From assembly GCA_027078545.1 (NCBI GenBank), contig JALWXN010000004.1, positions 737,100 to 801,099 of the forward strand: a DNA stretch of 64,000 nucleotides, in the 5' to 3' direction. The notes beneath the pieces are model-generated. The model had not been told where the DNA came from, ran no database searches, and worked only from the letters and a program-made list of their open reading frames with translations. A program made the translations under genes and the position numbers. The DNA is from Nitrososphaeria archaeon. Its GTDB lineage: Archaea; Thermoproteota; Nitrososphaeria; Geothermarchaeales; JDFR-13. Positions 20,296 to 60,145 of this stretch are shown piece after piece (the first letter of the stretch is position 1; every line of letters begins with the position of its first letter).

Positions 20296-21449
20296 TGAGC
20301 CTCTCCATAGCAGTCGTAACCGAGACCTTCCACCCATTCAAGGGGGGCTCTGCAAAGAGGTATCTCGAGGTATTTAGACGCCTCGCGAGGAGGGGCTGGG
20401 ACATAGACATATACACCGTGAGGCTAGACCCGTCCTGGCCGGCGGAGGAGGAGTATGAGGGGCTGAGAATAATAAGGAGCAGCCTACCAATACCCGAGTA
20501 CATAACTCCAGACGGTTTCAGGAGCATGTCCGGGATCTATAAATACCTCTCATGGCTCATGAGGAGCGTGGATCTACGGGGCTACGACGTAATAGAGGCG
20601 AACCACTGCCCAATATTCCCAGTATTCGCCTCATGGCTCAAGAGGAGGAGCCGTGCACCACTAGTCTCCACGGTCCACGAGGTCTGGCACAGCGACTGGT
20701 ATAGATACGCCCCCACCACGCTTCACGTCCCACTAGGCATCCTGCTCGAGAAGGCTATGATGCACCTGCCTGATAGGATCATATCGGTGAGCAGCTTCAC
20801 CACGGATAGGCTTACAAGGATACTAGGCGTATCTCCAAGCCTGATAACCACGATACCCAACGGTGTAGACCTGGACCTCTACCGTGGGATAGATGTGGAG
20901 AAGGAGTATGGGAGGATAGTCTATGGCGGGAGGCTAAACCCACATAAGAGGCTGGACATACTGCTCAGGAGCTTCGAGGAGCTCCACCGGAGCCTAGACG
21001 TCAAGCTAGACATCTTTGGAGACGGCCCTATGAAACAGTATGTCAAGAGCTTCATATCGAGGAACGGGTTCTCGAGGAGCGTCACCCTACATGGAAGGGT
21101 GGACGACCATAGATTCGCATACCTGATGAAGAGGGGCTATATATATACCCTCCCATCGATAAGGGAGGGGCAGAGCATAACAACGCTAGAAGCTATGGCC
21201 GCAGGCACTCCACAGGTCACGGTCTACAGCGACAACAACGCAGCCTACAAACTAGTCCTAGAGGCAGGGAGTGGACTAGTCACCAGGCCGGAGCCGAGAG
21301 AATACGCAAGAGCTATTAAAAAACTTCTTGTTGAGAAGGATGTATGGATGGAGTACTCCTTAAATGGATCCAGTTATGTGAAAAGCTTTGATTGGGACGT
21401 CATATCTCAAAAGCATAAAATTGTATATGAGAAATTGTCAAAAAGATGA
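20295..21449 (+). CDS. GT4-family glycosyltransferase (GT-B fold) with AT-rich 3' end
   Basis: 384 residues. The acceptor half begins AVVTETFHPFKGGSAKRYLEVF. The donor half carries GGRLNPHKRLDILLRSFEEL, then LHGRVDDHRFAYLMKRG, then the E-x7-E nucleotide-sugar motif in REGQSITTLEAMAAGTPQV. This is typical of GT4 retaining transferases making surface glycans. It starts on the stop of the surface-protein gene (TGATG overlap). From about 21300 the codons change abruptly to AAA/TTT-rich use, while the frame stays open through the last 50 or so residues. The 3' end may therefore have been replaced by recombination. Confidence 0.9.
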   Translation: MSLSIAVVTETFHPFKGGSAKRYLEVFRRLARRGWDIDIYTVRLDPSWPAEEEYEGLRIIRSSLPIPEYITPDGFRSMSGIYKYLSWLMRSVDLRGYDVIEANHCPIFPVFASWLKRRSRAPLVSTVHEVWHSDWYRYAPTTLHVPLGILLEKAMMHLPDRIISVSSFTTDRLTRILGVSPSLITTIPNGVDLDLYRGIDVEKEYGRIVYGGRLNPHKRLDILLRSFEELHRSLDVKLDIFGDGPMKQYVKSFISRNGFSRSVTLHGRVDDHRFAYLMKRGYIYTLPSIREGQSITTLEAMAAGTPQVTVYSDNNAAYKLVLEAGSGLVTRPEPREYARAIKKLLVEKDVWMEYSLNGSSYVKSFDWDVISQKHKIVYEKLSKR

Positions 21450-23165
21450 AGACATTTGTCTAAAAACCTAAATTTTCTTTACCATTAAACTTTTGTTTTT
21501 TCTGAAAATATATATTCCTCAAAATAAGGGTTCAAAACACGGGATTTAGCGAAATGAATTTGAAACTTACTAAAGTTATGTTGCTATTAGTACTGTTGCT
21601 TCTTTTACAGATAGAGACTGACTACACCGCTGCTCAGAGTATCATAGTTCCAATTGATTACCCAGATCTTCAAACTGCCATAAACAATGCGTTACCGGGC
21701 ACATCGATTTATGTCGATACTGATCTGACCATCAGTTCTCCAATCACTATTATCGGTAAGGATAACTTGTACATAGTCCTCAGATACGGTTCCAAAATAA
21801 TTGCAGATTCGGGCTTCGTAGGTCAAGAAATAGTTTTGATCGACAGAAGTAGCAAAATCATTCTTACTGACTTCACTATATCCTATGAAGGGAGTTCCGC
21901 CTTACCGGCACTAGATTTCCTAAGAATAAAATCTTCCAACAACATTGCTGTGAAAAATCTTTCTGTATCCATAGATACAAATACCCATCCTGTTGCCCTG
22001 AGATTTATCAGTATCGATGACGGTTCGATAAATATAACGATAACAAACGTCACTGGTGTTGACATGGCTCTAACATCCTTAAGTGTAGTAGGCGTCTTTG
22101 CCAATATCCAGTTCATGAGTGGTGGCTATATTACAATGGATAGTCTGCTTTTCGAAGATATAGCCCTCGGATCTCCTGGTAGCTTTGAAGGAGTAAAAAT
22201 AGAGCTCATGCGGGTCACCGGACTGGACATTAAGGTATCAAACGTGGCTGTTAAAAGGGTGTATTCTACATGGGTTCAAGGAATAAACAGCACGTATCTA
22301 AGGCAAGTGAGAAACATTGAGACACAGTATACCAATGTAACACTAACAAACATTGTCGGCTCAGGAGGGGGTATATCATTCAGAGGATTGACCTTTAGCC
22401 GTTTTACAGTACCTGTCATACTTGACTCCATAGTTACAATTCGAAACTTAATGCTATCTTCATGGATAGAGCCTAACATGCCTATGCCTTACAAGTTTGA
22501 TGGGGTGATCATAGAGGCACCATACTTCTACAACTTGACGGTAAAGATCGATGAAGTAACAATCAAGGATATCAATAGTCCAGATATATTGTCAGGGCTC
22601 TATACTGGAGAAGCACATGGAATACATATAGACGTTAGCTACTTTATATTGGAAGCATTTGGATTGCCCACTTATGACATTAAAATCGATATTGACAGGG
22701 TATCGATATCACGTCTATACTCATGGGGAACAATAGGTATATTTAGTGATTTCGAAGGGTTCTACATGTCTAGGATTAGATACACCATCAACAATGTAAA
22801 TATTACTGACGTAGGGATATATGACTTTGGCATAATCGGATACGGCAAGGTTCTCAGGGCTAACTCTCTTTTCGATTACCGGGTATGGATAGAGGAATTC
22901 TTTTTTAACGACAGGGAGGGCATTGGTGCGGGTATTTGGCTCCGCAGAGCAGATGATATACATCCAATAAATACACCCAGAAATCTAAATGAGTTGAGGC
23001 AGAGTGAGGATCTGTACTTTGCATACAGCATATTATGGCGTGTATATGCGGCCAGCGCATGGACGAATTCCATGACACTTTTCGAGACTGTTGTTGACGA
23101 ACTTAACTCACGTATTGCACTTTTGATGCGCGTTAGAAACGTCTGGACACTGGAAACTTTCGTCT
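21300..23165 (+). other. AT-rich mosaic block spanning two genes
   Basis: From about 21300 the local sequence loses the AGG/CTA/GCC-rich style of the region and becomes rich in A and T. This includes the last 50 or so codons of the glycosyltransferase, the intergenic gap and the first 535 or so codons of the next gene. From roughly 23165 the native style returns inside the same reading frame. The edges are judged by eye and could move by tens of bases. Confidence 0.6.
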
Positions 23166-23803
23166 ATAGTAGTATAACATCACTACCAATACCAGGCGTC
23201 TACGTAGAGTATCTCTACCCAACTCCCAGCCAGTACTCCTTCGGATTTACCGATTCATCTGGGCGTTACGCATATATTATGGATTACTACATGACCAACC
23301 CACCCATCGTCCAGGTGGGCCTGATACAGGTGGCCGTCTCCTCTGGGTACTTCTCATCATCCGTCATGCTACCCAGCTATATAAGTGTGACGGAGGGCCT
23401 CCCACTCTCAGAGTCTTACTATACCCTGCCGGCATGGTTCGGTGAGGTGGTGTTCACCATCCCACTTGTCTCCCTAAGGGCTATGGGCTTCAGCCATGAC
23501 ATGGGGACGACATACCTATTCATCGCTGGGACGGTAGGCTGGTTCGCTGGCTACTACAGCTATACTCCTGACGAGCTTTGGAATGGAGACATAGCAACTC
23601 CCGGCACCAACAATACATGGGTGAAGAGCCCCTACAGGAATTATCAGCTCCGAGGTCTGAGGGTCTCATGGACAGGCTCGGTCATCCAGATACGTGGAGA
23701 GATATTCTACGATGGGTACTGGCAACCAGTAACAATATACGTAGATCCGGAGAGGAGGGTTGTCTGGAGCCCAGGACCTGTGGACTTCAGGGGCTGGTTC
23801 TAG
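21554..23803 (+). CDS. Chimeric secreted protein: parallel beta-helix-like N-terminal part, carboxypeptidase-regulatory-like C-terminal part
   Basis: 749 residues. A signal peptide covers residues 1-28 (KVMLLLVLLLLLQIETDYTAAQ). It is followed by YPDLQTAINNALPGTSIYV, the usual entry to right-handed beta-helix (pectin-lyase-like) domains, then many short strands rich in Asn, Ile and Val up to about residue 530. From about residue 540 a CarboxypepD_reg-like unit begins (SITSLPIPGVYVEYLYPTPS, FTDSSGRYAYI). The C-terminus has no membrane anchor. The DNA switches from AT-rich to native style at this domain boundary. It is probably a surface or secreted glycan-binding or cleaving protein; no catalytic residues can be assigned. 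Confidence 0.75.
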   Translation: MNLKLTKVMLLLVLLLLLQIETDYTAAQSIIVPIDYPDLQTAINNALPGTSIYVDTDLTISSPITIIGKDNLYIVLRYGSKIIADSGFVGQEIVLIDRSSKIILTDFTISYEGSSALPALDFLRIKSSNNIAVKNLSVSIDTNTHPVALRFISIDDGSINITITNVTGVDMALTSLSVVGVFANIQFMSGGYITMDSLLFEDIALGSPGSFEGVKIELMRVTGLDIKVSNVAVKRVYSTWVQGINSTYLRQVRNIETQYTNVTLTNIVGSGGGISFRGLTFSRFTVPVILDSIVTIRNLMLSSWIEPNMPMPYKFDGVIIEAPYFYNLTVKIDEVTIKDINSPDILSGLYTGEAHGIHIDVSYFILEAFGLPTYDIKIDIDRVSISRLYSWGTIGIFSDFEGFYMSRIRYTINNVNITDVGIYDFGIIGYGKVLRANSLFDYRVWIEEFFFNDREGIGAGIWLRRADDIHPINTPRNLNELRQSEDLYFAYSILWRVYAASAWTNSMTLFETVVDELNSRIALLMRVRNVWTLETFVYSSITSLPIPGVYVEYLYPTPSQYSFGFTDSSGRYAYIMDYYMTNPPIVQVGLIQVAVSSGYFSSSVMLPSYISVTEGLPLSESYYTLPAWFGEVVFTIPLVSLRAMGFSHDMGTTYLFIAGTVGWFAGYYSYTPDELWNGDIATPGTNNTWVKSPYRNYQLRGLRVSWTGSVIQIRGEIFYDGYWQPVTIYVDPERRVVWSPGPVDFRGWF

Positions 23804-23953: not shown

Positions 23954-24181
23954 ATGGGGGTGAAGACGATAACCATATCGCTCGAGGCGTATAAAGCCTT
24001 GCTACGCCTCAAGAAGCCCGGGGAGAGCTTCTCAGACGTGATACTGAAACTTGTTAGGAAGCATCGCAGCATAAAGGAGCTGGCAGGAGCGTGGAGCGAT
24101 GTGGATGACGTGGAGATCAATGAGATCATGCTGGGGATTAGGGAGGCCTGGTCTAGGTGGGGTATGAGGGAGGCAAGGTAG
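23954..24181 (+). CDS. vapB: VapB-type antitoxin (DUF217 family)
   Basis: 75 residues. The N-terminus VKTITISLEAYKALLRLKKPGESFSDVILKLV matches the archaeal DUF217 antitoxin family, whose first strand and helices form a DNA-binding ribbon-helix-type dimer. The acidic C-terminal part should bind and neutralise the PIN toxin. The toxin gene overlaps its 3' end by 25 nt. The tandem palindromes upstream suggest autorepression. Confidence 0.88.
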   Translation: MGVKTITISLEAYKALLRLKKPGESFSDVILKLVRKHRSIKELAGAWSDVDDVEINEIMLGIREAWSRWGMREAR

Positions 24182-24567
24182 TTGTAGACACGGATGTACT
24201 GATCGATTATCTAAGGGGGAGGAGGCCGGCCGTCGACGAGTTAGTGAGGATGATGGATCAGGGAGTTGTACTGGCTACGACGGTCGTCAACATATTTGAA
24301 CTCTCCTGGGGAGCCTATAGACTCGGCAGGACGAGGGAGGTTGAGGATCTGGTTGAGGCCTTGACAATCCTAGACCTAACAGTAAGGGAGGCTGTAAAGG
24401 CGGGTGAGGAGATAGCCCATCTCACATCGATAGGCCAGATAATAGAGATACGAGACCTACTGATAGGCGTCATGGCGAGGGAGAACGGCTATGCAGTCTA
24501 CACGGGCAATACAAAGCATTTCGGGATGATAAGGGGCTTAAGAGTGATCCCATATAGACGTGGATAA
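24157..24567 (+). CDS. vapC: VapC-type PIN-domain ribonuclease toxin
   Basis: 136 residues from a GTG inside the antitoxin gene. The acidic PIN residues are visible: Asp in VVDTDVLIDYL, Glu in NIFELSWGAYR and Asp in EIRDLLIGVMA, with YTGNTKHF in place of the usual TxD near the end. VapC toxins cleave tRNA or rRNA when released from VapB. The start is forced by the overlap; no ATG exists in this frame before the first catalytic Asp. Confidence 0.9.
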   Translation: MGYEGGKVVVDTDVLIDYLRGRRPAVDELVRMMDQGVVLATTVVNIFELSWGAYRLGRTREVEDLVEALTILDLTVREAVKAGEEIAHLTSIGQIIEIRDLLIGVMARENGYAVYTGNTKHFGMIRGLRVIPYRRG

Positions 24568-24585: not shown

Positions 24586-25581
24586 CTACCTAAGGACCCT
24601 CCTGAACACCCTTTCAGCATTCCTATATGCCAGCCTCTCCAGCCGCTCACGTGTCCATCCAAGCCCCTCCAACGCCCTGTAGAGGTTGGTGATCATCTCG
24701 ATCCTCTTGAGATCGTCCGGGGGATTACATCCGAATAGGTCCGTCCCAACAGCGACGACCTCGTCTCCGAAACGCTCCGCAACTGTGTCTATATGCCTAG
24801 CCAGGCTCTCGGCACTAGGCTTCTCCCCAATTGTCTGCCGGATATATGTGAAGCCTATCACCCCGCCGTTGCTAGCCAGTCTATCCAGGACCTCGTCATC
24901 AACATTCCTCTGATGCTTAACAAGGCCTGCATAGTTGCTATGGCTTATCAACACCGGGTCGGAATGTGTCTCCAAGACCTCCAACATCGTATTCCTACTG
25001 CTATGGGCGAGGTCGATGACTATTCCCTCCGCCTCCGCCAGGCTGAGGAGTGCCTCCCCACTGCCAGTCAAGCCATAATCCCTCCTAGACATACAAGATG
25101 CAGCATACCTGGTATCGTAGTTCCACGTCAGCCCTATCAGCCTGACACCTAGATCCTTGTAGAGATAGATGTCCCCCGGGTCGTCTAGGTACTCCGTACC
25201 CTCAAGGCCTAGGATGATCCCGATACCCTCGCCGTCAAGGTCTGAGCGGTTCGTTACGAGGCGGAACTCCCCATACCTCCTAACGAGCCATTTATAGATC
25301 GTGATCACGTCGAGGGCCGCGGCCTTGGGGGAGGATGGTCTTATATAGATGTCGCCAGCCCCCTCCCCATAGCCCTTCATAACCTCGCCACCCATCGAGG
25401 CATATCCCCTCTGGAGGGCGAATACGGCGCCTACCAAGAGCTTCACATTGGCCTCTAGGTAGCCAGGGATGTCTCCATGCCGATCCTTCCTCTTAACCTC
25501 CATGTCGTGCTTACCGCCTAGGTAGATGTAGTAGCCGATATCCTCGTGGAGATCTATGAGTGGCGGGTTTAGACCTTCCAT
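24586..25581 (-). CDS. Membrane-dipeptidase-type peptidase (M19 / renal dipeptidase family)
   Basis: 331 residues. The metal-binding order of the M19 barrel is present: IDLHED near the start (His and Asp), EGTEYLDD (bridging acidic residue), LAHSSRN, LISHSNYAG (second site His) and GTDLFGCNPPDD near the end. The enzyme should cleave dipeptides, including those with D-residues. No signal peptide is seen. A cttatatc box about 30 nt upstream of the ATG suggests a leaderless transcript. The surroundings include other peptidases. Confidence 0.92.
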   Translation of the reverse strand: MEGLNPPLIDLHEDIGYYIYLGGKHDMEVKRKDRHGDIPGYLEANVKLLVGAVFALQRGYASMGGEVMKGYGEGAGDIYIRPSSPKAAALDVITIYKWLVRRYGEFRLVTNRSDLDGEGIGIILGLEGTEYLDDPGDIYLYKDLGVRLIGLTWNYDTRYAASCMSRRDYGLTGSGEALLSLAEAEGIVIDLAHSSRNTMLEVLETHSDPVLISHSNYAGLVKHQRNVDDEVLDRLASNGGVIGFTYIRQTIGEKPSAESLARHIDTVAERFGDEVVAVGTDLFGCNPPDDLKRIEMITNLYRALEGLGWTRERLERLAYRNAERVFRRVLR

Positions 25582-52768: not shown

Positions 52769-55700
52769 GTTAAAACCAGACTAGGAAGGGTTGAAAGCTT
52801 GACGATGAAGACATAGAGCCACTCCTAATCAACGCAAAGTTAAAACCAGACTAGGAAGGGTTGAAAGTTTTTCTGTCTATTCTATATAGAAGGTATATTA
52901 TGACGGAGGTTAAAACCAGACTAGGAAGGGTTGAAAGTGAGAAAGTTTATAAAGCTCTTGTGGTCAGGAAACTCGGCAGTTAAAACCAGACTAGGAAGGG
53001 TTGAAAGTGTTGCCGTACTGGCTCTGGCAGTACTGGATGACATCATCGTTAAAACCAGACTAGGAAGGGTTGAAAGGGCCACCAGGCCGCCTCCTTCCAC
53101 ACTACTTTCCAGGCCGTGTTAAAACCAGACTAGGAAGGGTTGAAAGTGAACTTTACCAGCAGGTCCAGTAACTCCTTTATGTCAAAGGTTAAAACCAGAC
53201 TAGGAAGGGTTGAAAGGATCTCTGTTGCGTTTACGTAGATGTTGCTTAGCGAGACCAGTTAAAACCAGACTAGGAAGGGTTGAAAGGTATATGGATACTC
53301 GACAACGTATCGACAACACTAAAAGTTAAAACCAGACTAGGAAGGGTTGAAAGTAGACAAGCGCCAGAAACATCCCAGCCAACATCAACACAAGTTAAAA
53401 CCAGACTAGGAAGGGTTGAAAGCAAAGTACTTTCTGAGCATGTTTGCGACAGCGTAGGCGGTGTTAAAACCAGACTAGGAAGGGTTGAAAGAGTACTGCT
53501 GGTCTCCAAGCAACGCTTGGGTGGATAATTCTGGTTAAAACCAGACTAGGAAGGGTTGAAAGGCTCCTCGACGAAGAGGGAGTACCACTCGAGAAGGTCA
53601 TACAGGTTAAAACCAGACTAGGAAGGGTTGAAAGACAGGCGATTAGTCTAGTCGTCCCAAGCACCATAACCATGTTAAAACCAGACTAGGAAGGGTTGAA
53701 AGAGTGTTACTAGACCTTGGGCTGGTGGATGGCGTATTCTACCGTTAAAACCAGACTAGGAAGGGTTGAAAGACAGCATAAGCGGTGGGACACATCAGGT
53801 AAATGTGAGGAGTTAAAACCAGACTAGGAAGGGTTGAAAGCCCATATATCATGTACATTACTGTGTCATATGTGTCGACACGTTAAAACCAGACTAGGAA
53901 GGGTTGAAAGTCACCGATCCATGCTGCAAAGTCCTCAGACGCCCATGATTCAAGTTAAAACCAGACTAGGAAGGGTTGAAAGCCACGAAAAATGCGTGAT
54001 AGTTTATGCTCACAGTTAAATTGTTAAAACCAGACTAGGAAGGGTTGAAAGGCAAGACCCAGCCCCCCAGCCTCAGAAGTGGTCTGAGGAATAGTTAAAA
54101 CCAGACTAGGAAGGGTTGAAAGCTCGATTGCTTGTGAGCAAAACGAGTGTTTAGAGGCGTATTCATGTTAAAACCAGACTAGGAAGGGTTGAAAGGTAAC
54201 TCAGTCACATCCCGTGACTCATTCTTCACCATGTTAAAACCAGACTAGGAAGGGTTGAAAGATTCGGAATATGGAGGACTACATAGCATACATGAGTCTA
54301 ATGAGTTAAAACCAGACTAGGAAGGGTTGAAAGGAGTCTGGGGCGGTCTATGGAGTCGTCAGCAACACGGGGCGTTAAAACCAGACTAGGAAGGGTTGAA
54401 AGCCACTCCCTGATGACTAGTGGTATGTTGATGTAGAACACGTTAAAACCAGACTAGGAAGGGTTGAAAGAGTTCAGGGTCGACAGGGATACAGAGGCCA
54501 ACACACAGGTGTTAAAACCAGACTAGGAAGGGTTGAAAGCATATTTTGCACCTCCCTATTGAGTTCCGTCCTCGATCGATGGTTAAAACCAGACTAGGAA
54601 GGGTTGAAAGACTTGTATTTTGACATGATTTCGCTGACATCCATACCAGTTAAAACCAGACTAGGAAGGGTTGAAAGTGTCTTCCTAGCATCGCTTCTCC
54701 TCTTAGCTATATTTGTTAAAACCAGACTAGGAAGGGTTGAAAGAGTCGCAAAAAGACCGAACCAACCGTCAAAGTAGCAAGACCCAAGTTAAAACCAGAC
54801 TAGGAAGGGTTGAAAGGTAGTTGCGTGGTAGCTCTATCGTCCCCCGTGAATTCGGCAAAGTTAAAACCAGACTAGGAAGGGTTGAAAGTCCCTGGGGGGT
54901 GGGGGTGACGTTCTCTTCACTACCTCGGTGTTAAAACCAGACTAGGAAGGGTTGAAAGGGGAAACGCCACGATCAGCGTGAACACTGGGAACGCCATCGG
55001 TTAAAACCAGACTAGGAAGGGTTGAAAGAGCACAGCCAAGAAACTCATAAAAGCCCTTGAAGAGATGTTAAAACCAGACTAGGAAGGGTTGAAAGGATAG
55101 ACTACCTCAGAACCCTGACACTCAACGAGATCATCGTTAAAACCAGACTAGGAAGGGTTGAAAGTAGGGCTCATCCATCTAAGCACCCCTATCTTTTTAT
55201 ATGTTAAAACCAGACTAGGAAGGGTTGAAAGGAACTCTATGACTAGGTTCATGGTGTTGGTGATGATGGGGGTTAAAACCAGACTAGGAAGGGTTGAAAG
55301 ATGAGCTTATACCCCCCGACCTCGCTGGGGGGTAGCTCATGGTTAAAACCAGACTAGGAAGGGTTGAAAGCTCTACAGCCTATATGTTGCTGGCGACTTC
55401 ATATCAGAGTTAAAACCAGACTAGGAAGGGTTGAAAGTGACGATCATTTCCTCGCCGTGCTCCTCACACCAGAGCTCAGTTAAAACCAGACTAGGAAGGG
55501 TTGAAAGTTTTGATAGCACTATCCACTCGAGCCTATCTTCGTCACGATGTTAAAACCAGACTAGGAAGGGTTGAAAGTGTCTCTATTTGGCTGTCTTTTG
55601 CAAGGCTTCTCGCCCATGTTAAAACCAGACTAGGAAGGGTTGAAAGCATTCCGCAAAAAGAGACCGATTCCACCTAGGAGACCCATCAGAATAGTTAAAA

Positions 55701-55995
55701 CCAGACTAGGAAGGGTTGAAAGGGTCATCAATGAACTCTCGAACAACGCCGAGATAACTATGTTAAAACCAGACTAGGAAGGGTTGAAAGGCTCCTCGCA
55801 TCAGCGTACCATGTCGCATCACAGATCCTGTTAAAACCAGACTAGGAAGGGTTGAAAGTTACATACTCTATGATGTCTGGTAGGAAGATGAATGCTAGGT
55901 TAAAACCAGACTAGGAAGGGTTGAAAGCAAGCTCAGAGGCTACACGGGATACGAGGCGGGATGTGAGTTAGAACCAGACTGGGAAGGGTTGTTTG
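52769..55995 (+). CRISPR. CRISPR array, 47 repeats of 29 nt and 46 spacers
   Basis: The repeat begins GTTAAAACCAG and ends GGGTTGAAAG, which is 29 nt long. I count 46 identical copies, starting at 52769, 52839, 52909 and so on to 55899. A 47th copy at 55967-55995 is degenerate: it has two A-to-G changes and ends TTTG instead of AAAG. Spacers are 37-47 nt, mostly 39-42. The leader lies on the left and the decayed repeat on the right, so new spacers enter on the left and transcription runs rightward. The GTTGAAAG end is typical of archaeal type I/III repeats. No cas gene is in the window, so the array depends on proteins encoded elsewhere. Confidence 0.98.
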
Positions 55996-56024
55996 TTGGA
56001 TCTTGATTGTTGTTTGGCTTGGGT

Positions 56025-56039
56025 GTATTTTTTATTTTT
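56025..56039 (+). terminator. T-rich terminator after the CRISPR array
   Basis: Two T-runs (56028-56033 and 56035-56039) split by one A, about 30 nt past the last repeat, are a likely end of the precursor crRNA. Confidence 0.45.
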
Positions 56040-56082
56040 GTTGGTGGGTTTACCTTTTGGTAGTATATTGGGGGTGACCGTT

Positions 56083-56304
56083 TTGGGCTACGTTACTGTG
56101 TCCGCCAAGATCCCTAGGGAGTTGAAGAGGTTGTTAGAGAGGTATGGTATACGTCCCGGCCCTGTTATCCGTGAGGCTTTGGAGGAGGCTGTCCGGAGGA
56201 GGATGGCTGAGGAGCTTGAGAGCCGTGCAAGGAGGCTTGCCGGTAAGGCTGGGGCTGGGGATGAGGATGTAGCTAGGTATATCAGGGAGGATAGGGAGAG
56301 GTGA
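56083..56304 (+). CDS. vapB: VapB-type antitoxin, second pair
   Basis: 73 residues from TTG 56083, which has a GGGGGTGA ribosome site 5 nt away and gives the usual N-terminus GYVTVSAKIPRELKRLLERYG. The longer frame from 55993 would start inside the last CRISPR repeat and is not credible. A ribbon-helix-type first part is followed by a charged helix (EEAVRRRMAEELESRARRL) that should wrap the toxin. The toxin gene overlaps as GTGA. Confidence 0.85.
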   Translation: MGYVTVSAKIPRELKRLLERYGIRPGPVIREALEEAVRRRMAEELESRARRLAGKAGAGDEDVARYIREDRER

Positions 56305-56711
56305 GTGGATACCTCTTCGACACCAGCTCCATAATAAACATCCTCCTGAGGGGGCGTGTAAAGCCCCTCGTGAACGGCTATACACTCGACCTGGCACGGT
56401 ACGAAGCGCTCAACACTGTGTGGAAGATGGTTAGGAGGAGGGAGGGCTTAACACCAGGGGAGGCGGGTGAACTCGTCTCCATACTTGTCGAGCTCCTAAG
56501 CAACATAATGAGGATCATATCGATAACTGGTCATGAGGAGAGGGTCTACCAACTAGCATTGGATGAGGGTCTAACCGTCTACGACGCGGCATACCTATAC
56601 ATGGCTATGGAGAAGGGCTTAACACTAGTCACGGACGACGAGAAACTGCTCCAGAAGGCTGAGAAGCATGTAGAGACGATGACCACGAAGATATACCTTG
56701 GCGAAGAATAG
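56301..56711 (+). CDS. vapC: VapC-type PIN-domain toxin, second pair
   Basis: 136 residues from GTG 56301. All four acidic PIN positions are visible: Asp in LFDTSSIINIL, Glu in ARYEALNTVWK, Asp in TVYDAAYLYMA and Asp in LVTDDEKLL. This sequence is not close to the first VapC at 24157 and belongs to a different PIN subgroup. It probably cleaves RNA when its antitoxin is lost. Its position directly beside the array could help keep the locus. Confidence 0.92.
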   Translation: MSGYLFDTSSIINILLRGRVKPLVNGYTLDLARYEALNTVWKMVRRREGLTPGEAGELVSILVELLSNIMRIISITGHEERVYQLALDEGLTVYDAAYLYMAMEKGLTLVTDDEKLLQKAEKHVETMTTKIYLGEE

Positions 56712-57306: not shown

Positions 57307-58905
57307 TTATCTGTTTCCCATGCTTCTTCTTTGGAGTTTCCTCCGGGTTGATATGAGCCTTTCCCTTAACCTTGTCTTCCCTGATGTGTATTTGGGCTTA
57401 CGGTCTCTTAATAGCTGCTTGTCTATATGGTCGGTTGGGAGTCTTCCGTCGATGTCCTCGGGTATGGGTGTGTCGGCCAGGTATAGTATTAGGGGGGCTA
57501 TGTCCATTATCGACAGTTTCCCTCCTAATCCCTTCCTGAACCCTCTCCCTCCAAATGCGTAGAACCCCTCTCTTATGTGGAAGGATGGGGCTATCCTTAT
57601 CGCTCTGAGATCGTTTACTTTGGAGAGGCTTGGCTGGCTGGGCTTGAATAGCTTCTTTCCCGTGCCTCTTGAGGCGAACCACAGTCTCTCATCTGGCTCT
57701 AGTAGGATGTCTGGGATGTCTGGCTCGGGATTTGGATTGCTTATAACCTGTTTAAAGAGCTTTACCCCGTCCACCTCCAGGTTCCGAAGCCTCTCCACAG
57801 CCTCATTTACAAGTTTTTCATGTTCCGATGCGTCTACGAATCCCTTTCTAAATATGCCTCTCAGGTTGGCTTTTAGACCCCCTACATTTACTAGGGGGAA
57901 TATCTCTGTTCTCTCCCAGTCCACCATTGTCTGCATCTCCCTCGCTGGACTCTCGAGTATCAAGACACGGTTTATCCCCACATTTAGCCTCCTTTTAATG
58001 CTTTGCGGTAGTATCCTCCATATCCTCCTGACGAGGCGGTTTCTCCTCAGCCATGTTGCCCTTATCCTCCTAGTCCTCCTCAACTGTAGATATCCTAGAT
58101 CCGCCAGTATCGTCAGCAGGTCTATAAGCTTGTCCTTCCTCCTATGTCCATGATCCGACATTATGATGTAGCCCGCCTCCTCCCCTAGATGATCCATATA
58201 TCTGCCTAGCCAGGTGTCGAGTCTCGCGAGGCATTTATAGACGTATTCCATGTAGTCGGGGTCGTCCATAAACATGTGGAGGAGGATGTCGGGGGTCATG
58301 GCTATGTAGAGGTGTAGGGTATAGTCCCCACGCCTCATCAATTCATACATTGCTCTGAGCCTCTCCTCCTCTACCTCCATCACCCTCCTGTAGTAGTCCT
58401 CAGGCCTACCGCTGTAGAATGGGTATCCGATCCTATAGCCCAGCCTGTTAAGGGTCTCGAGGATCTCGGCTGGGTAGATGTTCTCCGGCCTCGGCCTGGA
58501 GGGGCCTACGAATTCCTGCTCCTGCCCTATCCATACACCCTCCACCCTTGGTGCTGGGGTGCTTATAGGAATGTTCATGTAGAGCCCTCTATGCCCATGC
58601 CTACCGAGCCTCTCCCAGACCCCCTCTACACGTAGATCCTTTATCGACATGTATCGTAGGCTATAGTCCGTATCTATCACTACGAAGTTTATCAGGCCGT
58701 GCCTCGTAGGCCTATACCCGGTCAACGCTGCATACCAGTTCGCCGGCGTTACTATAGGTGGCTCCGCCAGTAAACCGTCCATACCACCCATCCCGACCAG
58801 GTCTCCCAGGTTGGGCGTATAGCCAGTCTCGACCGCCTCCCTAGCCACGCCGAGTGGCACACCGTCCCAGCCGAAGAATAGGATCTTCACCCCCTGCTTC
58901 ACCAC
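57307..58905 (-). CDS. Alkaline-phosphatase superfamily protein (type I phosphodiesterase/nucleotide pyrophosphatase-like)
   Basis: 532 residues. KILFFGWDGVP near the start supplies the first metal-binding Asp, VTPANWYAALTGYRPTRHG carries the Thr/Ser nucleophile region, and GYIIMSDHGHRRKDKL in the middle gives the D-H-G-H metal ligands. The C-terminal third, rich in Arg and Lys, is not typical of the group. It should hydrolyse phosphodiesters or phosphate-containing headgroups; related proteins act in surface-glycan and lipid metabolism. The last 700 nt of the gene (C-terminal coding part) are more T-rich than the rest. Confidence 0.85.
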   Translation of the reverse strand: MVKQGVKILFFGWDGVPLGVAREAVETGYTPNLGDLVGMGGMDGLLAEPPIVTPANWYAALTGYRPTRHGLINFVVIDTDYSLRYMSIKDLRVEGVWERLGRHGHRGLYMNIPISTPAPRVEGVWIGQEQEFVGPSRPRPENIYPAEILETLNRLGYRIGYPFYSGRPEDYYRRVMEVEEERLRAMYELMRRGDYTLHLYIAMTPDILLHMFMDDPDYMEYVYKCLARLDTWLGRYMDHLGEEAGYIIMSDHGHRRKDKLIDLLTILADLGYLQLRRTRRIRATWLRRNRLVRRIWRILPQSIKRRLNVGINRVLILESPAREMQTMVDWERTEIFPLVNVGGLKANLRGIFRKGFVDASEHEKLVNEAVERLRNLEVDGVKLFKQVISNPNPEPDIPDILLEPDERLWFASRGTGKKLFKPSQPSLSKVNDLRAIRIAPSFHIREGFYAFGGRGFRKGLGGKLSIMDIAPLILYLADTPIPEDIDGRLPTDHIDKQLLRDRKPKYTSGKTRLRERLISTRRKLQRRSMGNR

Positions 58906-58963
58906 CCTGTCCAGTAAGACCCACCAGTCATCACTACTAGATAGTTGTGCGGGGCATAATTAT

Positions 58964-60145
58964 TCACTGCCCAGTTACGATGCCTATAAACCTGCTGAAA
59001 ATAGCAGGGGCTATCTTGAGTGGTGGTACGGCGAGGACTGAGAGTCCACTTATCAGGGCTAGGATCGCGGCGGCCTCGAACGCACCTGTATATGACGTTG
59101 TGGAGGCGAGTATCCTGAGAATTATCCCAATGTTCAGCGCCACGGTTGCGAGGTAGCTCCTCCCGAGGTCTAGGCCGGTGACTGCTCTGAAGACTATTGG
59201 TGCATGGCCCAGCAGCATGTTCCCTATATATCCGAGTGCGGCTGTATGTAGCACTATGTCTGTGTAGAACCACTCGCGTGACAGTGAGGTGTAGAGGTAG
59301 GTTGCCAGGGAGATCGCAAGCCATAGGTAAGAGGCCATGAGATGGTTATGGAGGTATGGGTCGACCCCTGGACTCCCCCTTAGCCTATAGTCCCTATTGA
59401 TGAGTAGGAGTAGTAGGGCTGACATAACCACTATGTAGTAGCCCCTACCCAGCATAGGCATGTCGAGAACTGAGGAGGCCATGATCATGAGGGGGATGCT
59501 CGGCGAGGCTATGGAGAGCATCGTAAGTAGCCTCCCAGGGCCGCCTAGGAACCTGGTCAGCTCGACCCTCTCACCCATTATGAAGAGTATGGGGTATAGG
59601 AGGAGGATCGTCCCATAGAGGTCGTAGGGCAGGACCTGGAAGAGAACCATGTTGAGAATGGCGAGGAGTAGGGATAGGTATGCCGCTAGGAACAGGATGA
59701 GGCTTGGGAAAGGTGTGTAGCGCCTCAGACCTATGTAGAAATAGGCCATCGAGAGAGTGCCAAGCAGGAGTGGATAGGATAGTAGGGTCACGGGTAGGCC
59801 GAGCTCTAAGAAGCGGTTGGCGAGGAGTAGGAGTGTCCCCGATACGAAGGATACTAGGGCTATTAGGAGGATATACCTAAACATCTCCACACCCCTGGGG
59901 AGGCCGGAGATACGCTCAACAGTTATCAGTACTGCGATGAAGCCTATGATTATGAGGCTGGAGTGGTAGTCATACACCATGTAGAGCCTCTCATGTAGAA
60001 GACCTACTATCCCCCCTGTGTATCCCGGCGAGTATATGGTGACTAGCCTGGGCAGACCCACCAGGATGCCTAGGACCATGGATATTACCGCTACGCCCAT
60101 GGCGGGGAATATCTTCCTATCGATCCGTCTCCACGGGGTGACCAT
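58964..60145 (-). CDS. NnrS-like polytopic membrane protein, paralogue of the 46623 protein
   Basis: 393 residues with about twelve hydrophobic segments. LHTAALGYIGNMLLGHAPIV around residues 304-323 aligns with LHSLTLGFIANYIVAYAGVM of the first copy, and the helix layout is the same. A His-x-His near DPYLHNHLM may hold haem or copper. The function is unknown; NnrS relatives are linked to nitric-oxide stress and haem-copper chemistry. Confidence 0.72.
   Translation of the reverse strand: MVTPWRRIDRKIFPAMGVAVISMVLGILVGLPRLVTIYSPGYTGGIVGLLHERLYMVYDYHSSLIIIGFIAVLITVERISGLPRGVEMFRYILLIALVSFVSGTLLLLANRFLELGLPVTLLSYPLLLGTLSMAYFYIGLRRYTPFPSLILFLAAYLSLLLAILNMVLFQVLPYDLYGTILLLYPILFIMGERVELTRFLGGPGRLLTMLSIASPSIPLMIMASSVLDMPMLGRGYYIVVMSALLLLLINRDYRLRGSPGVDPYLHNHLMASYLWLAISLATYLYTSLSREWFYTDIVLHTAALGYIGNMLLGHAPIVFRAVTGLDLGRSYLATVALNIGIILRILASTTSYTGAFEAAAILALISGLSVLAVPPLKIAPAIFSRFIGIVTGQ

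Follow-up and report, generated by a model that had tools for sequence, protein, structure and literature searches.

An AT-rich composition mosaic with both edges inside open reading frames, shared by two sister species of hyperthermophilic archaea

Introduction

Transferred DNA fragments that ignore the borders of genes and of domains are known (Chan et al. 2009, PMC2639706), and so is the variability of archaeal surface and glycosylation loci, as in the S-layer and the alternative glycosylation clusters of Haloferax (PMC5867893). Concerning protein structure, the right-handed parallel beta-helix is known from pectate lyase, NosD-like and tailspike proteins.

The locus considered here can be compared with each of these systems. 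It contains an AT-rich block that, like the intragenic lateral transfers of PMC2639706, has its breakpoints inside genes, so that the units are neither whole genes nor intact domains; in contrast with them, it was recognized from composition and codon usage with the help of one sister genome, and is accompanied by no significant topological conflict. The likeness to the Haloferax loci (PMC5867893) lies in a glycosyltransferase placed beside surface-type proteins, in a gene presence that varies by species, and in lateral transfer and recombination; the lineage and the protein families are different, and here the mosaic is a feature common to two species. The 749-aa protein encoded across the block has the same predicted fold as the pectate lyase, NosD-like and tailspike proteins; it differs from them in having no significant Pfam or NCBIfam model and a C-terminal region confined, in the genomes searched, to its own archaeal family. 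The mosaic is thus of an already known kind, while the family of putative surface proteins carrying it is undescribed.

Sequences and genomes compared

The window, i.e. the whole stretch of 64,000 nucleotides analysed (G000:C4:737100-801099), belongs to the 1.24-Mb genome (G000; 52% GC) of a hyperthermophilic archaeon, to which MAGs carrying the name Candidatus Geothermarchaeota are the closest named relatives. Its main contig (1.14 Mb; GC 52.0%) was analysed in its whole length. The relatives compared, with one genome per species, were the sister species (G002), a third congener (G003), and also G001 and the AUK163 MAG. The window genome and the sister species have about 51-52% GC, compared with 37-44% in the relatives sampled within their genus and family, which suggests that being GC-rich is a derived condition of those two species.

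Limits and composition of the AT-rich block

Between roughly 21.3 and 23.15 kb of the window, the GC content falls from about 0.54 to 0.33-0.43. A two-changepoint model was fitted by maximum likelihood to the GC3 of the 651-aa gene, the glycosyltransferase, the 749-aa gene and the PIN gene, and yielded values of 0.66, 0.40 and 0.62 for the left flank, the block and the right flank, respectively, with a gain of 53 lnL units over the model of no change. The 2-unit support intervals of the edges were 21237-21312 (left) and 23183-23294 (right). The maximal-scoring segment for codon usage, an independent score, returned limits identical to those of the block in Table 1. The initial annotation had placed an abrupt shift near 21300 and a return near 23165, both of which were confirmed within 30 bases, and the sliding GC and codon-usage profile proposed as a check is sharp rather than smooth.

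Only 0.5% of the 1.8-kb segments of the 1.14-Mb contig are equally AT-rich. Among the 773 genes of this contig tested, the 749-aa gene has the largest internal GC3 step and the glycosyltransferase the sixth largest. The latter gene has a host-like composition as far as codon 334 or so, and a GC3 drop at the gene end as large as its own occurs in 0.2% of 497 genes. The block covers the end of the glycosyltransferase and the front three quarters (codons 1-547) of the 749-aa gene. Both frames stay open over the changes of composition, as had been claimed, with one stop apiece located at the end. The intergenic gap between them, with the TATA-like AAAATATATATT, is probably the own promoter of the 749-aa gene, as judged from its sequence; its counterpart in the sister species has equal length and 28% GC. 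The window contains no tRNA; neither Rfam elements in the surroundings of the block nor long repeats on its two sides were found.

Table 1. Positions in the window of the block and of the features related to it
Feature	Position	Strand	Basis
GT4-family glycosyltransferase, 384 aa	20295..21449	+	Pfam Glyco_transf_4 1.8e-25, Glyco_trans_1_4 6e-23
AT-rich block, foreign-like codon usage	21297..23194	.	GC3 changepoints, codon-usage maximal segment, codon table fits
AT-rich 3' end of glycosyltransferase, about 50 codons	21297..21446	+	GC3 0.35 vs 0.68
Intergenic gap, 104 bp, 27% GC	21450..21553	.	TATA-like AAAATATATATT
749-aa beta-helix protein with signal peptide, putative surface protein	21554..23803	+	AlphaFold model, Foldseek, family search
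Conserved C-terminal region of family, aa 487-749	23012..23800	+	Alignment A1, identity by segment
Host-composition 3' part of 749-aa gene	23195..23803	+	GC3 changepoint; DNA-level matches to paralogues
VapB-like antitoxin, 75 aa	23954..24181	+	Read from sequence
PIN-domain toxin	24157..24567	+	PIN 3.8e-9
M19 dipeptidase, right flanking gene	24586..25581	-	Adjoins glycosyltransferase directly in G003

The antitoxin-PIN toxin pair to the right of the mosaic (23954-24567) is one of two in the window, the other being at 55993-56711. A CRISPR array of 46 copies, with a repeat that contains GTTAAAACCAGACTAGGAAGGGTT and a spacing of about 70 bp, lies at 52769-55922.

The 749-aa protein and its family

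The AlphaFold model of the 749-aa protein (pLDDT 75.6, with low to moderate confidence at residues 250-470) consists of a right-handed beta-helix, at about residues 31-539, followed by a C-terminal Ig-like region. Foldseek matched it to beta-helices of the pectate-lyase and tailspike type, so that model and matches agree on a parallel beta-helix fold. The protein is probably exported, and its beta-helix may be displayed for glycan binding or cutting, or for adhesion. None of the Pfam or NCBIfam models, including Beta_helix/NosD, was significant for it, with single family members reaching E values of 0.07-0.09.

The initial annotation held that the right edge of the block lies exactly where the beta-helix gives way to a carboxypeptidase-regulatory-like domain. 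The structural side of this proposal stands, since in the model codon 547 falls between the last beta-helix strand (to 539) and the first Ig-like strand (550). The domain name, however, has no Pfam match behind it: CarboxypepD_reg (PF13620, PF13715) gave no match in the window protein and matched two of 13 family members, with a best E of 0.059; judged from the predicted fold, the label is plausible. The first 60 codons of the conserved C-terminal region, which is probably a conserved module of the protein, are still inside the AT-rich block.

At DNA level, it is only the 3' part of host composition that matches resident paralogues (75-88%), and the block matched only itself in blastn on the 1.14-Mb contig, the ten small contigs being covered by protein searches only.

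Full-length members of the two-domain family number seven on the main contig, about eight in the sister species and about four in the third congener, and none was found in G001. Other genera of the taxonomic family gave weaker matches. In the remainder of the phylum, the matches were confined to the generic beta-helix start, i.e. the N-terminal 'IVPxDYPDLQTAIxxAxPGxxIxV' that the 749-aa protein has in common with many archaeal beta-helix proteins. In the genomes searched, the C-terminal region was found only within its archaeal family. The two-domain architecture is family-wide, with near-uniform composition, and the idea that two domains were newly joined in the window gene finds no support.

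Two further observations concern other members of the family. One is a tandem pair (L040, G000:C4 814900-819317, and L046), in which the orthologues of the two species are 89% identical for one gene and only 55% for the other, which indicates a very uneven evolution. The other is an extra full-length member of the sister species, p34 (L042:5328-7442), 34% identical to the window protein, which sits between two genes that in the window genome are separated by 58 bp (58905-58964); this amounts to the gain or loss of a gene at a junction that is conserved.

Comparison with the sister species and other relatives

The sister species (contig WAKB01000002) has the same gene order as the window, from the glycosyltransferase to the beta-helix gene, the PIN gene and the M19 dipeptidase, with identities of 89% for the glycosyltransferase and 80% for the two-domain beta-helix protein, and it carries an AT-rich region at the same position. 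The composition step is at the same place in the gene, with GC3 of 0.30 in codons 488-547 and 0.49 in codons 548-640; the changepoints are loosely bounded there, and the valley is broader and shallower than in the window genome. As the same gene, block and step occur in both species, a recent or strain-level exchange, as had been supposed, finds no support. In the third congener, the glycosyltransferase (63% identity) runs straight into the M19 dipeptidase, and the beta-helix gene, the PIN gene and vapBC are absent from the locus, while G001 and the AUK163 MAG have the glycosyltransferase with other neighbours.

The pS between the two sister species was 0.59 for codons 1-537 and 0.58 for the rest of the 749-aa gene, 0.57 for the glycosyltransferase and 0.585 for the M19 dipeptidase. 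This equality of block and flanks places the event before the species split, with no sign of later import. Several genes further out from this tract have lower pS (0.31-0.42); nevertheless, the higher values of the tract are not taken as a separate event, because other nearby genes also display 0.55-0.63.

A strong composition step between the N-terminal and C-terminal parts was present in two of the 13 aligned family members, namely the window gene (p 4e-8) and its orthologue in the sister species (p 1e-4), the next strongest steps having p values of 0.04 and 0.05. Most same-genome paralogues of the same fold have GC3 of 0.53-0.61 throughout, the exception being t2 (0.42-0.48). Full-length two-domain homologues of the same composition had been named as a possible refutation of the mosaic: they do exist, and the sister orthologue has the same pattern, but the near uniformity of the paralogues sharpens the anomaly instead of removing it.

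Codon usage of the block and candidate donors

The codons of the block scored -784 with the host table, -702 with the host table tilted through six free parameters, and -691 with a table of AT-rich congeners (mostly G003), while the flanking 5' part of the glycosyltransferase and 3' part of the 749-aa gene strongly preferred the host table. A simple AT tilt of host codons was thus rejected, as it remained 11 lnL units behind the untuned congener table despite its six free parameters. The best-fitting table was that of the 25 most AT-rich genes of this same genome (-675), and the tables of many other archaea of about 41% GC fitted the block equally well, so no single donor stands out. No donor or AT-rich orthologue was found. 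A donor resembling the third congener was rejected, since the glycosyltransferase tail (residues 336-384) is only 39% identical to that of G003, below the rest of the protein; this tail shows poor conservation whichever pair is compared. In the tree of the N-terminal part, the placement of G003_b as sister was also rejected (p 0.027).

Neither the amino-acid composition of the beta-helix nor low expression accounts for the block: GC3 falls at degenerate codons and most paralogues of the same fold lack the drop, and low expression leaves a step inside one gene unexplained.

Other AT-rich islands occur in the genome, at G000:C4 178901-188100, 364801-368500, 420701-426000 and 510701-547500 (L063, L072, L075, L079-L081). 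The AT-rich islands elsewhere in the genome hold genes for a GmrSD endonuclease, a McrB-like AAA protein, a DNA methylase, cas proteins and radical SAM/ABC proteins, contents that are typical of acquired DNA.

Origin of the block

Starting from the observed edges and codon usage, the sharing with the sister species, the equal divergence of block and flanks, and the family architecture, the block is best explained, on a moderately favourable judgement, as an ancient intragenic recombination mosaic formed before the species split. Before the common ancestor of both species divided, AT-rich DNA would have come to lie between sequences of host composition, in a piece made up of the last 50 or so codons of the glycosyltransferase, the putative intergenic promoter and codons 1-547 of the beta-helix protein. 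Most probably, the allele of an AT-rich relative entered by homologous recombination, with a left crossover in the glycosyltransferase and a right one in the conserved C-terminal domain, near the structural linker; both lineages would have inherited the mosaic since. Of the replacement by foreign DNA originally proposed, there remain the sharp, foreign-like mosaic with both edges in open frames and recombination as its best explanation, and what is lost is its recent, strain-level character. The trees of the N-terminal, middle and C-terminal parts display no significant conflict. This agreement is what two alleles of one gene, as donor and recipient, would produce, and it leaves recombination likely rather than proven. 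The sole breakpoint signal at protein level was a MaxChi-type change of affinity near aa 624-666, not at 547, and some controls were positive too.

The AT bias has been kept through about one synonymous substitution per site, and this bears on the first alternative, namely that the locus has a low local equilibrium GC in both species, caused by mutation bias, low recombination or lack of codon selection, with no foreign DNA involved. If the block were ameliorating as fast as its neighbours, a GC3 of about 0.20 would be required at the species split (values of 0.15-0.25 stayed within 2 lnL units, for the grid used). This is below the 0.34-0.37 of the AT-rich congeners, and a start of 0.35 was worse by 12 lnL units. 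A very AT-rich donor would account for this, or else some factor holds the stretch AT-rich. A stationary model with local GC3 of 0.39 and 0.34 fitted perfectly the site pattern of the two species, at a rate of 0.68 per lineage, as in the flanking genes, and this equally good fit keeps a purely local explanation alive. It would also agree with the broader and shallower valley of the sister species, with the 43% GC that intergenic DNA has on average in this genome, and with the AT-richness of nearly all sampled family relatives (37-44% GC), by which the AT-rich state may be ancestral. However, it leaves unaccounted for an abrupt edge, the strongest on the contig, within a single gene whose parts share expression and selection, and most paralogues of the same genome and fold are free of any such bias. 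It seems reasonable to consider this explanation unlikely.

A second alternative starts from the acquisition of an AT-rich foreign gene in its entirety; gene conversion with resident paralogues would later have given its 3' end the host composition. In its favour, the paralogues matched at DNA level by the 3' part alone lie at C4:492 kb and 931 kb; identity to them is 53-54% over the C-terminal 100 aa, compared with 27-35% just upstream, and an excess of identical codons was found with one of them in aa 641-749 (30 versus 20.8 expected, p 0.005). Nevertheless, this excess came from a set of 44 comparisons, similar ones exist between other pairs, the paralogue matches begin about 280 bases to the right of the composition edge, and the AT-rich end of the glycosyltransferase is not accounted for by conversion itself. 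A later gene conversion of the gene's tail, at which the MaxChi-type signal also hints, is thus suggestive only, and as an account of the block it is decidedly improbable.

The initial suggestion of antigenic or phage-receptor variation, through a recent and strain-specific swap of the surface head domain, fits with the adjacency of a surface-type protein and a glycosyltransferase, and with the variation of the family between species (p34 only in the sister species; no member in G001). It is very hard to maintain against the presence of the block, at equal divergence, in the sister species. Variation by silent cassettes was rejected because there is no archived copy of the block on the 1.14-Mb contig, and a diversity-generating retroelement because reverse transcriptase (PF00078) is absent from the genome, the control genomes being positive. 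No relatives were found in the viral and phage collections searched either, so the suggestion is left without support. An assembly chimera can be dismissed, as the gene order, the open frames and the AT-rich block all recur in the separately assembled contig of the sister species.

Significance for the archaeon and the protein family

In an uncultivated hyperthermophilic archaeon, a clean intragenic composition mosaic has survived the split from its sister species. The persistence of its AT-rich codons provides a small test case either for how fast a foreign composition fades or for its local holding, and it can be said that composition islands are no evidence of recent transfer. The two-domain beta-helix family of putative surface proteins, undescribed so far, undergoes gains and losses of genes between congeners. 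A wider conjecture, which we consider quite doubtful, is that both its paralogous and its orthologous members recombine homologously with AT-rich relatives and so exchange their beta-helix heads, the C-terminal tail being conserved. If this were true, the tail domain would be where crossovers recur, diversifying the surface in this archaeal family.
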